Assembly (NCBI GenBank): GCA_944323945.1
Contig: CALUUL010000004.1
Coordinates: 1-64,000 of the forward strand
Source of the DNA: Candidatus Gastranaerophilales bacterium
GTDB lineage: Bacteria; Cyanobacteriota; Vampirovibrionia; Gastranaerophilales; Gastranaerophilaceae
Direction of reading: 5' to 3'
Length of the DNA: 64,000 nucleotides
Below are positions 45,449 through 48,989 of this stretch, in pieces; within the stretch, counting starts at the first letter, position 1, and each line of letters starts with the position of its first letter. The translations under genes were made by a program, and so were the position numbers. Under the pieces are notes generated by a model. It saw only the letters and a program-made list of their open reading frames with translations. It searched no databases and was not told where the DNA came from.

Positions 45449-47077
45449 TTAACATACATATTGTATATCCAGCCTATCAGCAACATTTTTATCAACAGTA
45501 ATCAATGCATCTGAACGACCAATCGGCAAAGTAGAATTTCCAACAGGTCCCATCAATTTTTTTAATTCCATATCAGTAGCTATAAAATAATTGACAATAT
45601 TTTGAGCTGCTACATCTATATCAAGTCTTTTGGTTAAACATACATTTTGAGTAGCTAACCCGGCAGGGCAAAAACCAGTATTACAAGCATTACACTTTCC
45701 TTCATCATTACCAACACAACCGGCAATTTCAAGAAGAAGTCTACCTGTAAAAACACCATTTGCACCTAAACAAATAAGCTTAAAAGCATCTGCAGCAAAA
45801 CTACCAGTCTGACCAAGTCCACCACCTGCAAACAAAGGAATTTCACCTTGACGCCCCTGATGAACAGCAGCCAAATAACAATCCCTTAACTTTGAAGTAA
45901 TAGGATGACCTGTATGGTTTAAAGAAATTTCATGAGCAGCACCTGTTCCACCAGCAAGTCCATCTAAGAAAAAACCACCAACGATATTATATGGATCCCT
46001 AAGTAGATTATTATAAACTGAAACACTTGTAACAGAAGCTGCTACTTTTATAGCAACTGGAACTCTAAAATTGAATGCTGCATTCATTGATAAAAACATT
46101 TTTTGAACAGATTCTTCTATAGAATATAATCCTTGATGTGTTGGAGGACTTAATAAATCAGCACGAGGAACACCACGTATTTCTTGAACATATCTTGCAA
46201 CTTTACTTGCCATCAATAAACCGCCATCACCAGGCTTAGCACCTTGACCAATTTTAATTAAAATTCCTGCAGGATCTTCTATCATATCAGGCATTGCTTG
46301 AATAATTCTATTCCAACCAAAATGTCCTGAAGCAATCTGCAGAATCATATATTTTACATATTTTGATTTTAAGAGTCTAACAGGAATTCCCCCTTCGCCT
46401 GTACACATTCGCACAGGAAGTCCCATAACTTCATTAAGATATGCAGTAGCAATTGCCATAGCTTCCCACATACGCCAAGATATTGCACCAATAGACATAT
46501 CCCCCATAAGAATAGGATAAATCCATCTGTTAGGTGGTAATTGTTTTGAAACTTTCATCTCGCCTTGTTCCATATGCAAATTTAACTTATCTGCCGAAAG
46601 AACTCGTCCAAAAGGTGTTCTTAATTCAAATTTGTGACGTGCTGCATCTAAAGATGGATCTGTCATTTGCGATATTCTGCCAATTTTTATTTTATCCAGT
46701 GTACGTCCTTCAGTATTTAAATTTGAACGACCACCTTTTTTTAATGAGTCAGCCTTTGCAGCCCTATATCGAACAGAATATCTGTCATTCACATTTCTAA
46801 TTGCTTTTATTGCCCCATTTGGGCATACTCTTGAACACATACCACAGCCGCGACAGTGATTTTCAAACGAAACATTTTGTTTTATTACCAGAATTTTTTC
46901 AAAAGATGGTTTTTGAAAGCTACCAGATATTTTTCTTCTTTTTTCTATTACCGGCTTTATTGCCCCAAAAGAACATACAGCAGTACATTTACCACATTGA
47001 ATACACTTAGATTCATCATATTCTATAATCCAAGGTAAATCATCCTGATGTAATTCATTTATACTTATTGTTGCCAT
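45449..47077 (-). CDS. gltB: Glutamate synthase central (FMN/Fe-S) subunit with N-terminal ferredoxin domain
   Basis: A 542-residue protein. The N-terminal 90 residues hold two [4Fe-4S] motifs (CIQCGKCTAVC at 25-35 and CRGCGMCSRVC at 75-85). The rest is the FMN-binding glutamate synthase barrel: GAKPGDGGLLMASKV, SPPTHQGLYSIE, GGLAGGTGAAHE as expected, and near the end a 3Fe-4S-type Cys cluster (CNACNTGFCPAGLATQ). It aminates 2-oxoglutarate with ammonia delivered from the amidotransferase. Its start overlaps the amidotransferase gene by 13 bases. Confidence 0.94.
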   Translation of the reverse strand: MATISINELHQDDLPWIIEYDESKCIQCGKCTAVCSFGAIKPVIEKRRKISGSFQKPSFEKILVIKQNVSFENHCRGCGMCSRVCPNGAIKAIRNVNDRYSVRYRAAKADSLKKGGRSNLNTEGRTLDKIKIGRISQMTDPSLDAARHKFELRTPFGRVLSADKLNLHMEQGEMKVSKQLPPNRWIYPILMGDMSIGAISWRMWEAMAIATAYLNEVMGLPVRMCTGEGGIPVRLLKSKYVKYMILQIASGHFGWNRIIQAMPDMIEDPAGILIKIGQGAKPGDGGLLMASKVARYVQEIRGVPRADLLSPPTHQGLYSIEESVQKMFLSMNAAFNFRVPVAIKVAASVTSVSVYNNLLRDPYNIVGGFFLDGLAGGTGAAHEISLNHTGHPITSKLRDCYLAAVHQGRQGEIPLFAGGGLGQTGSFAADAFKLICLGANGVFTGRLLLEIAGCVGNDEGKCNACNTGFCPAGLATQNVCLTKRLDIDVAAQNIVNYFIATDMELKKLMGPVGNSTLPIGRSDALITVDKNVADRLDIQYVC

Positions 47078-48171
47078 CTTTGCACCGTTAAATCATTTTT
47101 TATAATTATAGTTTCTTTTTCATTTGGATATATATCTTTTGTAATATCTCTATTTGGAAGAACATCATTAATACCGTTAACTTCAGAAGTCATTATTACA
47201 GTATCATCGTCCATTCCTATAACAACAGGTCTTAATTTTTTTGAATCACAAACACAAAGCATTTCACTATTTGGCAAAACACCTAAAATAGTATTCGGTC
47301 CATTTATTTCCAAATGAGACAAAGAAGCTTTAATACGCAATAGAATATCTCTATCAGCTCTATTTTCTATTTCATCATAAGGAAGCGGAGTAATTGTATG
47401 TTTATAATACTGAATAGGCCACTTTAAAATTTTATTAATATAATGAAGTGTATATAAGAAACATTGTGAATCAGACTCAAAACCAATATAGCCTTTATAT
47501 AAAGACTTTTGATAATCCCTATTCTTTTCAAAAAATGTATTTTCACCATTAGCTAGTACTGTATAACCATCCAAAAAGAAAGGATGTGCAGCATAACGAA
47601 CAATATCATAATTTGTATTTTGTCTACATTGTGCAGTTATTACTTTTGCACATAGATCCTCATTTTCATCCCACAAACCAAAATAAGTTCCAATATCATT
47701 AGGACTTCCTATCTCTTTTAAGGTTAAGACATCGGGCCAGAAAGAATACATATATCCTAAATTATTTTTTTCTAGTTCTCTTCTTAATTGCAAAGCTGTA
47801 TCTACTAAAAGTTCTTCTTTCTCTTCTTGAGTCGCATATTTATGACTTTTCGGATACTGAAATGCCTCAAAAATATAATTAGGCATTGGTTCTATCTTTA
47901 AGCCTTTTTTATTATTTATATCGGGTGCCCATTGCAATACACGAGTAAATCCTAAATCATGTAAAATATCTTCAGCTTTTCTAGTTCCTTCAACAGTAGC
48001 AGCCATTGATAATATTGGTAGATTTTTATATGCAGAAAATATACCGCCTAAATCCTGCATAACAAAAGCAAAACCCGAATTATCATGTCCTTTTTGCTGT
48101 GAACGCATTAATCTTAAGGCTATTGAAGGGTGTAAATATTTTTTAGATTTTATAGCACCAATTCTACACAT
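47065..48171 (-). CDS. Class II glutamine amidotransferase subunit of glutamate synthase
   Basis: A 368-residue Ntn-type amidotransferase. Cys2 directly after the initiator Met is the nucleophile (MCRIGAIK), and the family features QQKGHDNSGFAFVM and VLANGENTFF follow. It releases ammonia from glutamine for the synthase subunit. It is the first gene of the three-gene glt operon, with a good promoter just upstream (TTGACA, 18 bases, TAAAAT) and almost no leader. The tandem small-RNA array lies on the other side of this promoter. Confidence 0.9.
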   Translation of the reverse strand: MCRIGAIKSKKYLHPSIALRLMRSQQKGHDNSGFAFVMQDLGGIFSAYKNLPILSMAATVEGTRKAEDILHDLGFTRVLQWAPDINNKKGLKIEPMPNYIFEAFQYPKSHKYATQEEKEELLVDTALQLRRELEKNNLGYMYSFWPDVLTLKEIGSPNDIGTYFGLWDENEDLCAKVITAQCRQNTNYDIVRYAAHPFFLDGYTVLANGENTFFEKNRDYQKSLYKGYIGFESDSQCFLYTLHYINKILKWPIQYYKHTITPLPYDEIENRADRDILLRIKASLSHLEINGPNTILGVLPNSEMLCVCDSKKLRPVVIGMDDDTVIMTSEVNGINDVLPNRDITKDIYPNEKETIIIKNDLTVQRWQQ

Positions 48172-48210: not shown

Positions 48211-48286
48211 TATTCTAAACGATTTTGTTAATTTTTTTTTTACAAAAAGGCAATTTTATTTTCCTAAAATACTTTATATAAATGTA

Positions 48287-48467
48287 GATAAAATACCGAA
48301 AGGAGAATTTAGTCTAAAACAAAAAAACACAAAGAGGCAATGCTAAGAGAAAAACACAAACTTAAAATCAGCCATTTTAGGCATAATGATTACAAAACGA
48401 TTTTTACTCTCTCTCTTAATATCCTCGTGTTTATTTGATGTTTGCATACTCTGCAAACATTTTTTTT
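48287..48467 (+). ncRNA. Tandem small RNA, copy 1
   Basis: An inferred transcript of about 180 bases. It begins after the conserved box ACTTTATATAA (TATATA at 48275-48280) and ends at a terminator hairpin TGTTTGCA / TGCAAACA with eight T residues. The 5' half differs from copies 2 and 3, but the last roughly 110 bases (from ATCAGCC through the terminator) are nearly the same. A stem can form between GAGG..ATGCTAAGAGA and TCTCTTAATATCCTC. No frame is conserved with the other copies, so it is non-coding. The RNA family is not recognised, and the start point is estimated from the -10 box. Confidence 0.65.
48439..48467 (+). terminator. Terminator of small-RNA copy 1
   Basis: Perfect 8-bp stem TGTTTGCA / TGCAAACA, loop TACTC, followed by eight T residues. 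Confidence 0.9.
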
Positions 48468-48551
48468 ATGTTTTATTTTTTTTGAAGATTTGTAACATAA
48501 TATATCTAAAATAACAATTCAAATAAAAAAAAATAACTTTATATAAGAGTA

Positions 48552-48728
48552 GATAGTTAATGAGAAGGAGAAAAAGTCTAAAGCAAAAAAGATAAAGAGG
48601 TAATATTAAGGGATACTAAATAAAAAATAATCAGCCATTTTAGGCAAAATGATTACAAAACAATTTTTACTCTCTCTTAATATCCTCGTGTTTATTTGAT
48701 GTTTGCATACTCTGCAAACATTTTTTTT
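48552..48728 (+). ncRNA. Tandem small RNA, copy 2
   Basis: An inferred transcript of about 176 bases after TATATA at 48540-48545. Stem GAGG-TA-ATATTAAGGGA can pair with TCTCTTAATATCCTC. An internal hairpin forms around ATTTT-AGGC-AAAAT. The same terminator closes it. Relative to copy 1, the stem keeps pairing although the 5' strand changes (A-U replaced by G-U), which supports a conserved structure. A short 11-codon basic frame beginning ATGAGAAGG in the 5' part is absent from copy 1. Confidence 0.65.
48700..48728 (+). terminator. Terminator of small-RNA copy 2
   Basis: Identical to the copy 1 terminator: 8-bp stem, TACTC loop and eight T residues, 261 bases further on. Confidence 0.9.
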
Positions 48729-48812
48729 ATGTTTTATTTTTTTTGAAGATTTGTAACATAATATATCTAAAATAACAATTCAAATAAAAAAAAATAACTT
48801 TATATAAGAGTA

Positions 48813-48989
48813 GATAGTTAATGAGAAGGAGAAAAAGTCTAAAGCAAAAAAGATAAAGAGGTAATATTAAGGGATACTAAATAAAAAATAATCAGCCATT
48901 TTAGGCAAAATGATTACAAAACAATTTTTACTCTCTCTTAATATCCTCGTGTTTATTTGATGTTTGCATACTCTGCAAACATTTTTTTT
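48813..48989 (+). ncRNA. Tandem small RNA, copy 3
   Basis: Appears identical in sequence to copy 2, offset by 261 bases (TATATA at 48801-48806), and ends at the same terminator. After 48989 the sequence soon departs from the repeat. Confidence 0.65.
48961..48989 (+). terminator. Terminator of small-RNA copy 3
   Basis: Same 8-bp stem and T-run as copies 1 and 2. Confidence 0.9.

Follow-up and report, generated by a model that had tools for sequence, protein, structure and literature searches.

Sequence evidence for a small-RNA family of Gastranaerophilales with an invariant core, a candidate complementary partner RNA and a putative role as phage attachment site

The window, a stretch of 64,000 nucleotides from a Candidatus Gastranaerophilales bacterium, carries beside a glutamate synthase gene a triplicated sequence that the first-pass annotation had read as a cassette of small RNAs. 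The locus raises the question of what the three copies encode and what the RNA, if it is one, would do. Taken as a whole, the results are best explained by three copies of a trans-acting base-pairing RNA, here RNA A, that would have a complementary partner, RNA B, and would serve as a docking site for phages, a reading to which we assign a probability of roughly 0.7.

Inspection of the window sequence revealed three tandem promoter-to-terminator units on the forward strand, divergent to the gene encoding the GATase domain of glutamate synthase, and all three units that had been annotated are present with promoter boxes and terminator. Each contains, in order, a GCAATT-like box followed by ACTTTATATAA, then the 5' strand (GAGG..TAAG), a small hairpin, the sequence CTCTCTCTTAATATCCTCGTGTTTATTTGATG and a terminator. 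The annotated box lies at 48271, 48536 and 48797, and the promoter extends beyond it, with GCAATT or ACAATT 15-16 nt upstream. The internal hairpin was confirmed in each unit as described. Three terminator-like sites were found in the array against 0.1 expected in shuffles, consistent with a terminator for each unit. The 261-bp repeats at 48409-48669 and 48670-48930 agree at 261 of 261 bases, as had been claimed for the last two units. Unit 1 is 80% identical to the other two over 98 nt (48317-48414) and 100% identical over 67 nt (48409-48475). An intrinsically terminated small-RNA gene has a promoter and a terminator of its own, and the sequence of the array provides both. The features are as follows.

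47065 to 48171, reverse strand: glutamate synthase GATase-domain gene, divergent neighbour, used as query for relatives
48250 to 48255, forward strand: GCAATT box (-35-like), unit 1
48271 to 48281, forward strand: ACTTTATATAA box (-10-like), unit 1
48287 to 48467, forward strand: predicted RNA A, unit 1, the start deduced from the box and the end placed at the T run
48334 to 48349, forward strand: 5' strand GAGGCAATGCTAAGAG, cis complement of the core, unit 1, lineage-specific
48366 to 48391, forward strand: internal hairpin, unit 1
48409 to 48440, forward strand: invariant 32-nt core, unit 1
48437 to 48467, forward strand: intrinsic terminator, unit 1 (terminator-like site 48437-48461)
48491 to 48496, forward strand: TGTAAC element upstream of unit 2
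48514 to 48519, forward strand: ACAATT (GCAATT-like) box, unit 2
48536 to 48546, forward strand: ACTTTATATAA box, unit 2
48552 to 48728, forward strand: predicted RNA A, unit 2
48597 to 48612, forward strand: 5' strand GAGGTAATATTAAGGG, cis complement of the core, unit 2
48629 to 48654, forward strand: internal hairpin, unit 2
48670 to 48701, forward strand: invariant core, unit 2
48698 to 48728, forward strand: intrinsic terminator, unit 2 (terminator-like site 48698-48722)
48752 to 48757, forward strand: TGTAAC element upstream of unit 3
48775 to 48780, forward strand: ACAATT (GCAATT-like) box, unit 3
48797 to 48807, forward strand: ACTTTATATAA box, unit 3
48813 to 48989, forward strand: predicted RNA A, unit 3
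48858 to 48873, forward strand: 5' strand, cis complement of the core, unit 3
48890 to 48915, forward strand: internal hairpin, unit 3
48931 to 48962, forward strand: invariant core, unit 3
48959 to 48989, forward strand: intrinsic terminator, unit 3 (terminator-like site 48959-48983)

Relatives of the array were sought through the neighbouring gene, which is 98% identical to that of locus L001. A GATase relative is encoded in 116 loci, of which 80 were kept, and blastn detected 31 pieces of the unit in 23 of the 80, all among the 25 closest. The closest loci lacking a blastn match, L008 (775 bases on that side) and L017, belong to genomes that have a copy elsewhere. Outside the window, 28 of 29 copies have the 34-nt stretch CTCTTAATATCC...TTTGCA in identical form, and the remaining copy differs from it by one change. 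Searched with up to 3 mismatches, the 34-nt pattern was present in 29 of 30 chosen genomes; the 24 genomes of the window's genus have 1-3 copies each (more than one in 7), and five more distant genomes have the pattern with 1-3 changes and, in the loci viewed, no gltB within 1.5 kb. One further copy in L001 (7210-7287), the third there, is changed in core and T run and resembles a decaying copy. Two of the loci (L026, L066) come from MAGs titled Fusobacterium sp. and uncultured Clostridia; both encode a gltB of the Gastranaerophilales type (80% and 73% identity to the query), and the titles are therefore probably wrong.

A 22-nt pattern from the core, with up to 2 mismatches, was found in 243 of 382 genomes of the class and a reversed-pattern control in 3; the count does not separate RNA A from an RNA B with an exact complement (one such case, G101:C7), and one of the 243 genomes (G256) is counted solely for a copy within a PMT_2 gene. 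The positive class genomes are all at most 2.5 Mb, the larger ones being negative as judged by eye. The exact core occurred in 48 of 117 genomes of the phylum, none above 2.3 Mb; two matches with 3 mismatches in phylum genomes of 6-7 Mb were taken as chance. Class membership, genome sizes and the named loci together suggest that RNA A is spread through the order Gastranaerophilales.

To define the family, 60 additional stretches were collected and 94 distinct full RNA A units were kept from all loci, leaving out junction pieces, edge pieces and copies in protein genes. In each unit a variable body precedes a 32-nt block (CUCUCUCUUAAUAUCCUCGUGUUUAUUURAUG), and a terminator ends the unit. Within the block, positions -6 to +25, 31 positions agree in at least 93 of the 94 units, the exception being the R at +22, and conservation drops on either side. 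Selection of the 94 units relied on bases left of the 22-nt search pattern, and the core was recounted with the promoter box (at most 1 mismatch) as sole filter, keeping 85 units and dropping 27. Among the ten positions outside the search pattern, 8 were identical in 85 of 85 units and one in 84, and one was A or G. The core also occurs in a PMT_2-family gene near rplJ in loci L152, L157, L162 and L171 (also L214-L217), with 27 nt in sense orientation and in frame (LSLNILVF). The four PMT_2 proteins with this segment are 73-100% identical to the query, and 11 other homologues are without it; wobble bases hardly vary in this copy, and the four genomes were picked by that match.

The promoter is likewise retained. 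The box ACTTTATATA, with up to 3 mismatches, lies upstream of the core in 94 of 94 units (78 exact), 70-179 nt before it within a searched range of 70-230 nt, and GCAATT (at most 1 mismatch) lies 14-16 nt upstream of the box in 86 of the 94. At 2000 random places ACTTTATATA was found at no more than 1 mismatch in 51, 9 of which had both boxes. TGTAAC precedes 34 of the 94 units versus 46 of 2000 random draws. The terminator stems vary between lineages, with 8 types of 5' arm that form a mean of 5.99 of 6 pairs with their own lineage and 4.84 of 6 with the best site in the tails of other lineages. A test for the mere presence of a terminator carried no information, as 659 of 940 shuffles also passed it.

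The Rfam covariance search gave no match for the array at the gathering score, in keeping with the annotation that no family could be recognised. A match to 6S RNA, named there as grounds for abandoning the proposal, was absent both at gathering and at E≤5. At a relaxed threshold the array gave only chance-level matches (RsaOG, E 0.96; SNORD81, E 1.3; rli24, E 1.8). The same search on six other loci, five with RNA A or RNA B units and one phage junction, returned SRP RNA and tRNA alone, and blastn of phage and plasmid record collections gave no match. The claim that no reading frame is conserved was likewise borne out: units 2 and 3 interrupt the frame that unit 1 leaves open, and a frame of at least 20 amino acids runs through the core in 11, 18 and 3 of the 94 units for the three frames. 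An alternative in which the units are leaders was rejected, since a terminator closes each unit and no frame is held in common. These results support the small non-coding RNA reading, with tandem copies unlike Rfam families and relatives in hundreds of genomes, and on present sequence evidence the units belong to a previously undescribed small-RNA family of Gastranaerophilales.

A second small-RNA gene, RNA B, normally present in a single copy, came to light through sequences on the other strand that nearly match the core. In 39 pattern-collected units the promoter has TGTAAC in 38, TGAAWT 15 nt later in 30 and then TATATACTTTATATATA; 38 of the 39 have 3-4 TTCC repeats followed by a terminator. 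Only units with the promoter, TATTAA and TTCC pattern were kept in this set, so the promoter and repeat counts lean towards that pattern; on 30 matched loci a simple RNA B pattern missed or misplaced several. The 5' part, like CATTAAATAAACACGAGAGATATTAAGAGAGAG, is complementary to the RNA A core except for a single additional or mispaired base at CCUC. The computed duplex between core and RNA B has a median of -40.6 kcal/mol over the 39 units (range -46.4 to -15.7), versus -9.5 for shuffled RNA B. TGTAAC upstream of the -10-like box is found in promoters of both RNA A and RNA B, and the reverse complement of this element is reminiscent of the cyanobacterial HLR1 box of RpaB. Motifs of the AAGG/AGGA type near the 5' end of RNA A occur in 90 of 94 units, but also in 1103 of 1880 shuffles; any pairing between them and the RNA B UUCC repeats is conjecture.

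Two models were used to follow RNA B, with rough E-values and the potential to miss RNA B genes. At E≤1e-4, model R1 (8 sequences) matched 102 of the 382 genomes, with two places in one genome; at E≤1e-8, model R2 (18 sequences) matched 116 of the 382, always in a single place. In G304 the R2 match falls on the reverse strand of RNA A, leaving at most 115 RNA B genes. A core match was present in 112 of the 116 R2-positive genomes and in 131 of the 266 R2-negative ones; thus RNA B was not detected by R2 in 131 of 243 core-positive genomes. In 29 genomes of the window's genus and its nearest kin, the best match of the better model was the reverse strand of RNA A. Since the core is invariant in a genus with no detected RNA B, RNA B is not the sole constraint on it. 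The RNA B loci gave no Rfam match for RNA B. In L262 (1538-1910) RNA B faces the bacterial large SRP RNA gene end to end. Among L174, L176, L178 and L262-L265, judged by eye, RNA B lies in one clade upstream of a hypoxanthine phosphoribosyltransferase-like gene and in the other near a desulfoferrodoxin-like gene. Two viral matches to the anti-core sequence (L212, L213), at or inside unrelated phage genes, were taken as chance. In L267 and L268 the sequence ACACGAGGACTTAATATCCTCGTG, a hairpin of the GAGG/CCTC string, lies in one case at a gene start and in the other within a gene; these hairpins are probably chance palindromes unrelated to RNA A.

Within the window's genus the core is faced by a strand of its own transcript. 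The annotated long stem between the variable 5' strand and the constant strand stood as regards the GAGG/CCTC pairing and was corrected to 14 pairs with a 2-nt bulge; unit 1 was correctly described as still pairing, but a C-A mismatch weakens its stem. With the structure given, 96.2% of cells were paired in an alignment of 30 sequences nearly all of the genus, versus 37-45% when the structure was slid. The covariation check favoured the inner hairpin, which holds all 3 pairs with changes on both sides, and gave none for the long stem, where changes are one-sided with some breaks because its 3' side is the invariant core; the terminator stem is invariant within the genus. In the window the long stem is real, but it is specific to a lineage: a pattern search recovered the 5' anti-core strand in 32 of the 94 units, which come from the window's genus and a few similar units, and it missed four units of the genus. 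Predicted pairing of CCUC with the body has a mean probability of 0.99 in these 32 units and of 0.42 in the 62 units with no strand found by the pattern, in whose predicted folds the core is about half open. The window's genus and its nearest kin are one clade, and a change from trans to cis would thus be one event at most; RNA B goes undetected in many other genomes as well. In this genus, the 5' strand folding back on its own core could replace RNA B in cis.

The phage connection emerged from viral contigs, 7 of which contain the exact core. In 5 of the 7, other DNA is joined exactly at CTTAATATCC, and the core leads into a terminator, with no RNA A promoter or body. Four of these five attP-like junctions adjoin a phage integrase (PF00589), one truncated at the sequence end, and the fifth has an amidase gene nearby. 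The other two contigs share a single sequence in which an entire RNA A neighbours a peptidase M15 gene (Pfam assignment for L209 alone). One host contig (G034:C14, L362/L363) has at one end a peptidase M15 gene preceded by RNA A, whose GCAATT box is lost at the contig edge, and at the other end, 41.5 kb away and in the same direction, an integrase, the core and a different terminator. It is the one contig with the core at both prophage ends and an integrase beside one, as expected of attB; G257 has both junction types on different contigs. Since the exchanged piece consists of core and terminator, the RNA A gene would be rebuilt on integration. The junctions indicate that tyrosine-integrase phages use the RNA A gene for attachment, through a putative attP that carries core and terminator.

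Candidate targets were sought by pairing the core with 1573 gene start regions, and the pairing was no better than that of shuffled cores. The real core had a 1% quantile of -19.8 kcal/mol. Shuffling the core gave -19.2 (sd 1.0), and 13 of 40 such shuffles were as good as the real one; shuffles that kept UCCUC gave -20.4 (sd 0.8), and 31 of 40 were as good. A Shine-Dalgarno-anchored pattern gave 171 matches in 23 genomes versus 115 for one permuted and 105 for a reversed control, and 12 of the 28 sites viewed start a frame of at least 60 amino acids; on these figures the pattern was set aside as target evidence. As to host factors, Hfq (PF17209) was found in 0 of 12 genomes, whose completeness is not stated, and CsrA in 4 of the 12.

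The most serious competitor holds that the core is invariant through binding of a protein or structural RNA, as a ribonucleoprotein scaffold or decoy rather than through mRNA pairing, with RNA B as an antisense off-switch. The approximately 32 invariant nucleotides exceed the usual length of a seed, the start regions show no excess pairing to the core, and the core is unchanged in a genus with no detected RNA B, all of which would fit such binding. Nevertheless, the pyrimidine-rich, UCCUC-centred core resembles motifs that pair with mRNA, for example ACUCCUCACAC of Yfr1; the complementarity of RNA B to the core is kept in many genomes; and neither 6S nor another Rfam family was matched. We consider this explanation unlikely, though it deserves to be kept in mind. 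That the repeats are simply attB sites or a mobile repeat, the core being kept by integrase traffic with no functional RNA, could be argued from the attP-like junctions and the prophage, which use exactly the RNA A core. However, three features lie outside the phage-borne piece or are unexplained by it: the promoter box, conserved in all 94 units, the terminator stems, which compensate across the family, and the CTCTCT left of the exchanged segment, in the recount invariant at five positions in 85 of 85 units and at the sixth in 84. This reading would also leave no place for a complementary RNA B with its own promoter, and we regard it as very unlikely.

The first-pass annotation had called the position beside a nitrogen-assimilation operon suggestive, and a nitrogen-regulated small RNA acting on gltB or glnA would accord with the finding that the array adjoins and diverges from gltB in 22 of the 23 genus loci where it was matched. 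The link did not hold in the wider set: of the 96 loci L105-L200, 19 have the gltB GATase gene, with identities from 85.87% upwards, the carriers thus being close relatives of the window, and of the 60 loci L141-L200 (flanks to approximately 3.5 kb; about 50 with RNA A) none has it. Outside the genus RNA A lies elsewhere, and within it the L011 copy is more than 4 kb from gltB. Judged from these loci, the association with gltB is limited to the window's genus, and a role in nitrogen control of these two genes is quite improbable. Least probable of all, and scarcely to be credited, is that the core encodes the end of a small membrane protein (...LSLNILVFI-stop), possibly derived from a PMT_2-family gene. 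The R at +22 does give TRA stops in 94 of 94 units, the sole frequent variant being TGA/TAA, and the same codons occur in the PMT_2 gene of 4 genomes. Yet most units have no in-frame start codon (at least 20 amino acids in 11 of 94), synonymous change in the core is nearly absent (one unit, one codon), 2-nt changes occur in the CT run, and the segment is missing in 11 of 15 aligned PMT_2 relatives. The absence of a common frame across the 94 units largely refutes the small-protein reading.

The small-RNA reading of the array is retained and is well supported, and the wider system of invariant core, complementary partner RNA and phage attachment role is held with moderate confidence. RNA A with its core, promoter and terminator, RNA B and the prophage junctions are read from the sequences themselves, from which we infer transcription, pairing of the two RNAs in the cell and targeting of mRNA. 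In the trans-acting model each copy would be transcribed from its own GCAATT-N15-ACTTTATATA promoter to its own terminator. The working part would be the invariant 32-nt core, mostly pyrimidine and A/U, that runs into the terminator and has at its centre an anti-Shine-Dalgarno-like UCCUC. In many relatives RNA B, with its related promoter, would present first a near-perfect complement of the whole core and then UUCC repeats, and most likely it would sequester RNA A, or the reverse, in the manner of Yfr1 and Yfr2 in cyanobacteria; in the window's genus the cis strand could do this job. Recombination of temperate tyrosine-integrase phages at CTTAATATCC would deliver a phage-borne core and terminator, and the lysogen would thereby keep an intact hybrid RNA A gene.

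That these elements amount to a two-RNA switch, with about 32 nt of ultraconserved complementarity, one lineage that has exchanged trans for cis and phages that supply the active half of RNA A, is a tentative proposal with slightly less than an even chance of being correct. If true, lysogeny would swap the core and terminator of a core regulator. As far as the searched literature shows, the system would be the first base-pairing small-RNA system described for Gastranaerophilales: a search on small and non-coding RNAs in this group gave nothing relevant by title and start of abstract, within a scope that mostly excludes subscription papers, and among the matches listed on small-RNA genes as attachment sites none concerned this group by title. 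A pair like Yfr1 and Yfr2 but with unrelated motifs, in a sister lineage of cyanobacteria, would make convergent origin testable. The approximately 32 invariant nucleotides of an RNA core imply the need for an equally constrained partner, and an RNA A gene that serves as attachment site would offer a natural system for the study of how phages exploit and preserve regulatory RNA genes.

Among known systems the closest likeness is to Yfr1 and Yfr2. In Yfr1, an RNA of 54-69 nt, the invariant 11-nt ACUCCUCACAC is reported to be unpaired between two stem-loops (PMC2190773), and according to a second report Yfr10 has the Yfr1 motif, and the nearly complementary motif of Yfr2 blocks contact of Yfr1 or Yfr10 with mRNA in vitro (PMC6778093). 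As far as these sources describe Yfr1 and Yfr10, RNA A resembles them as a free-standing RNA with an invariant pyrimidine-rich UCCUC motif before the terminator, into which its core runs directly as in Yfr1; in the existence of further RNAs that have the motif but little else in common; in a partner RNA with a complementary motif; and in being deeply conserved within one lineage of the phylum to which cyanobacteria also belong. Here, too, a pair of RNAs was found whose conserved motifs complement each other, save in the window's genus. In contrast to the 11 nt of Yfr1, the RNA A core has 32, and against the reported 54-69 nt RNA A is approximately 115-230 nt, with a longer and variable body; ACUCCUCACAC had 0 occurrences in 2.5 Mb of collected loci. 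RNA B is like Yfr2, as described there, in that its motif is nearly complementary to that of its partner RNA, and differs in complementing about 32 nt and in being without an Rfam match. By analogy, RNA A and RNA B would work on paper like Yfr1 and Yfr2 but are not members of that family.

Other small RNAs share single traits. LhrC is said to have tandem copies and UCCC motifs that pair with Shine-Dalgarno regions. LhrC1-5 of Listeria, reported as a multicopy small RNA with known targets (PMC4132741), is like RNA A in being multicopy and belongs to another lineage, with no sequence relation as judged through Rfam alone. The NsiR1 genes are reportedly arranged in tandem. NsiR1 of Nostoc, from the same phylum as RNA A, is reported as a heterocyst-specific, HetR-dependent small RNA (PMC9045159), its sequence relation to RNA A again being judged through Rfam alone. 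With respect to the attachment site, the precedent is that of tRNA and tmRNA genes. Phages that use these genes carry the 3' part of the gene and restore it on integration, whereas the putative site described here is a small regulatory-type RNA gene, sometimes present in several copies per genome.
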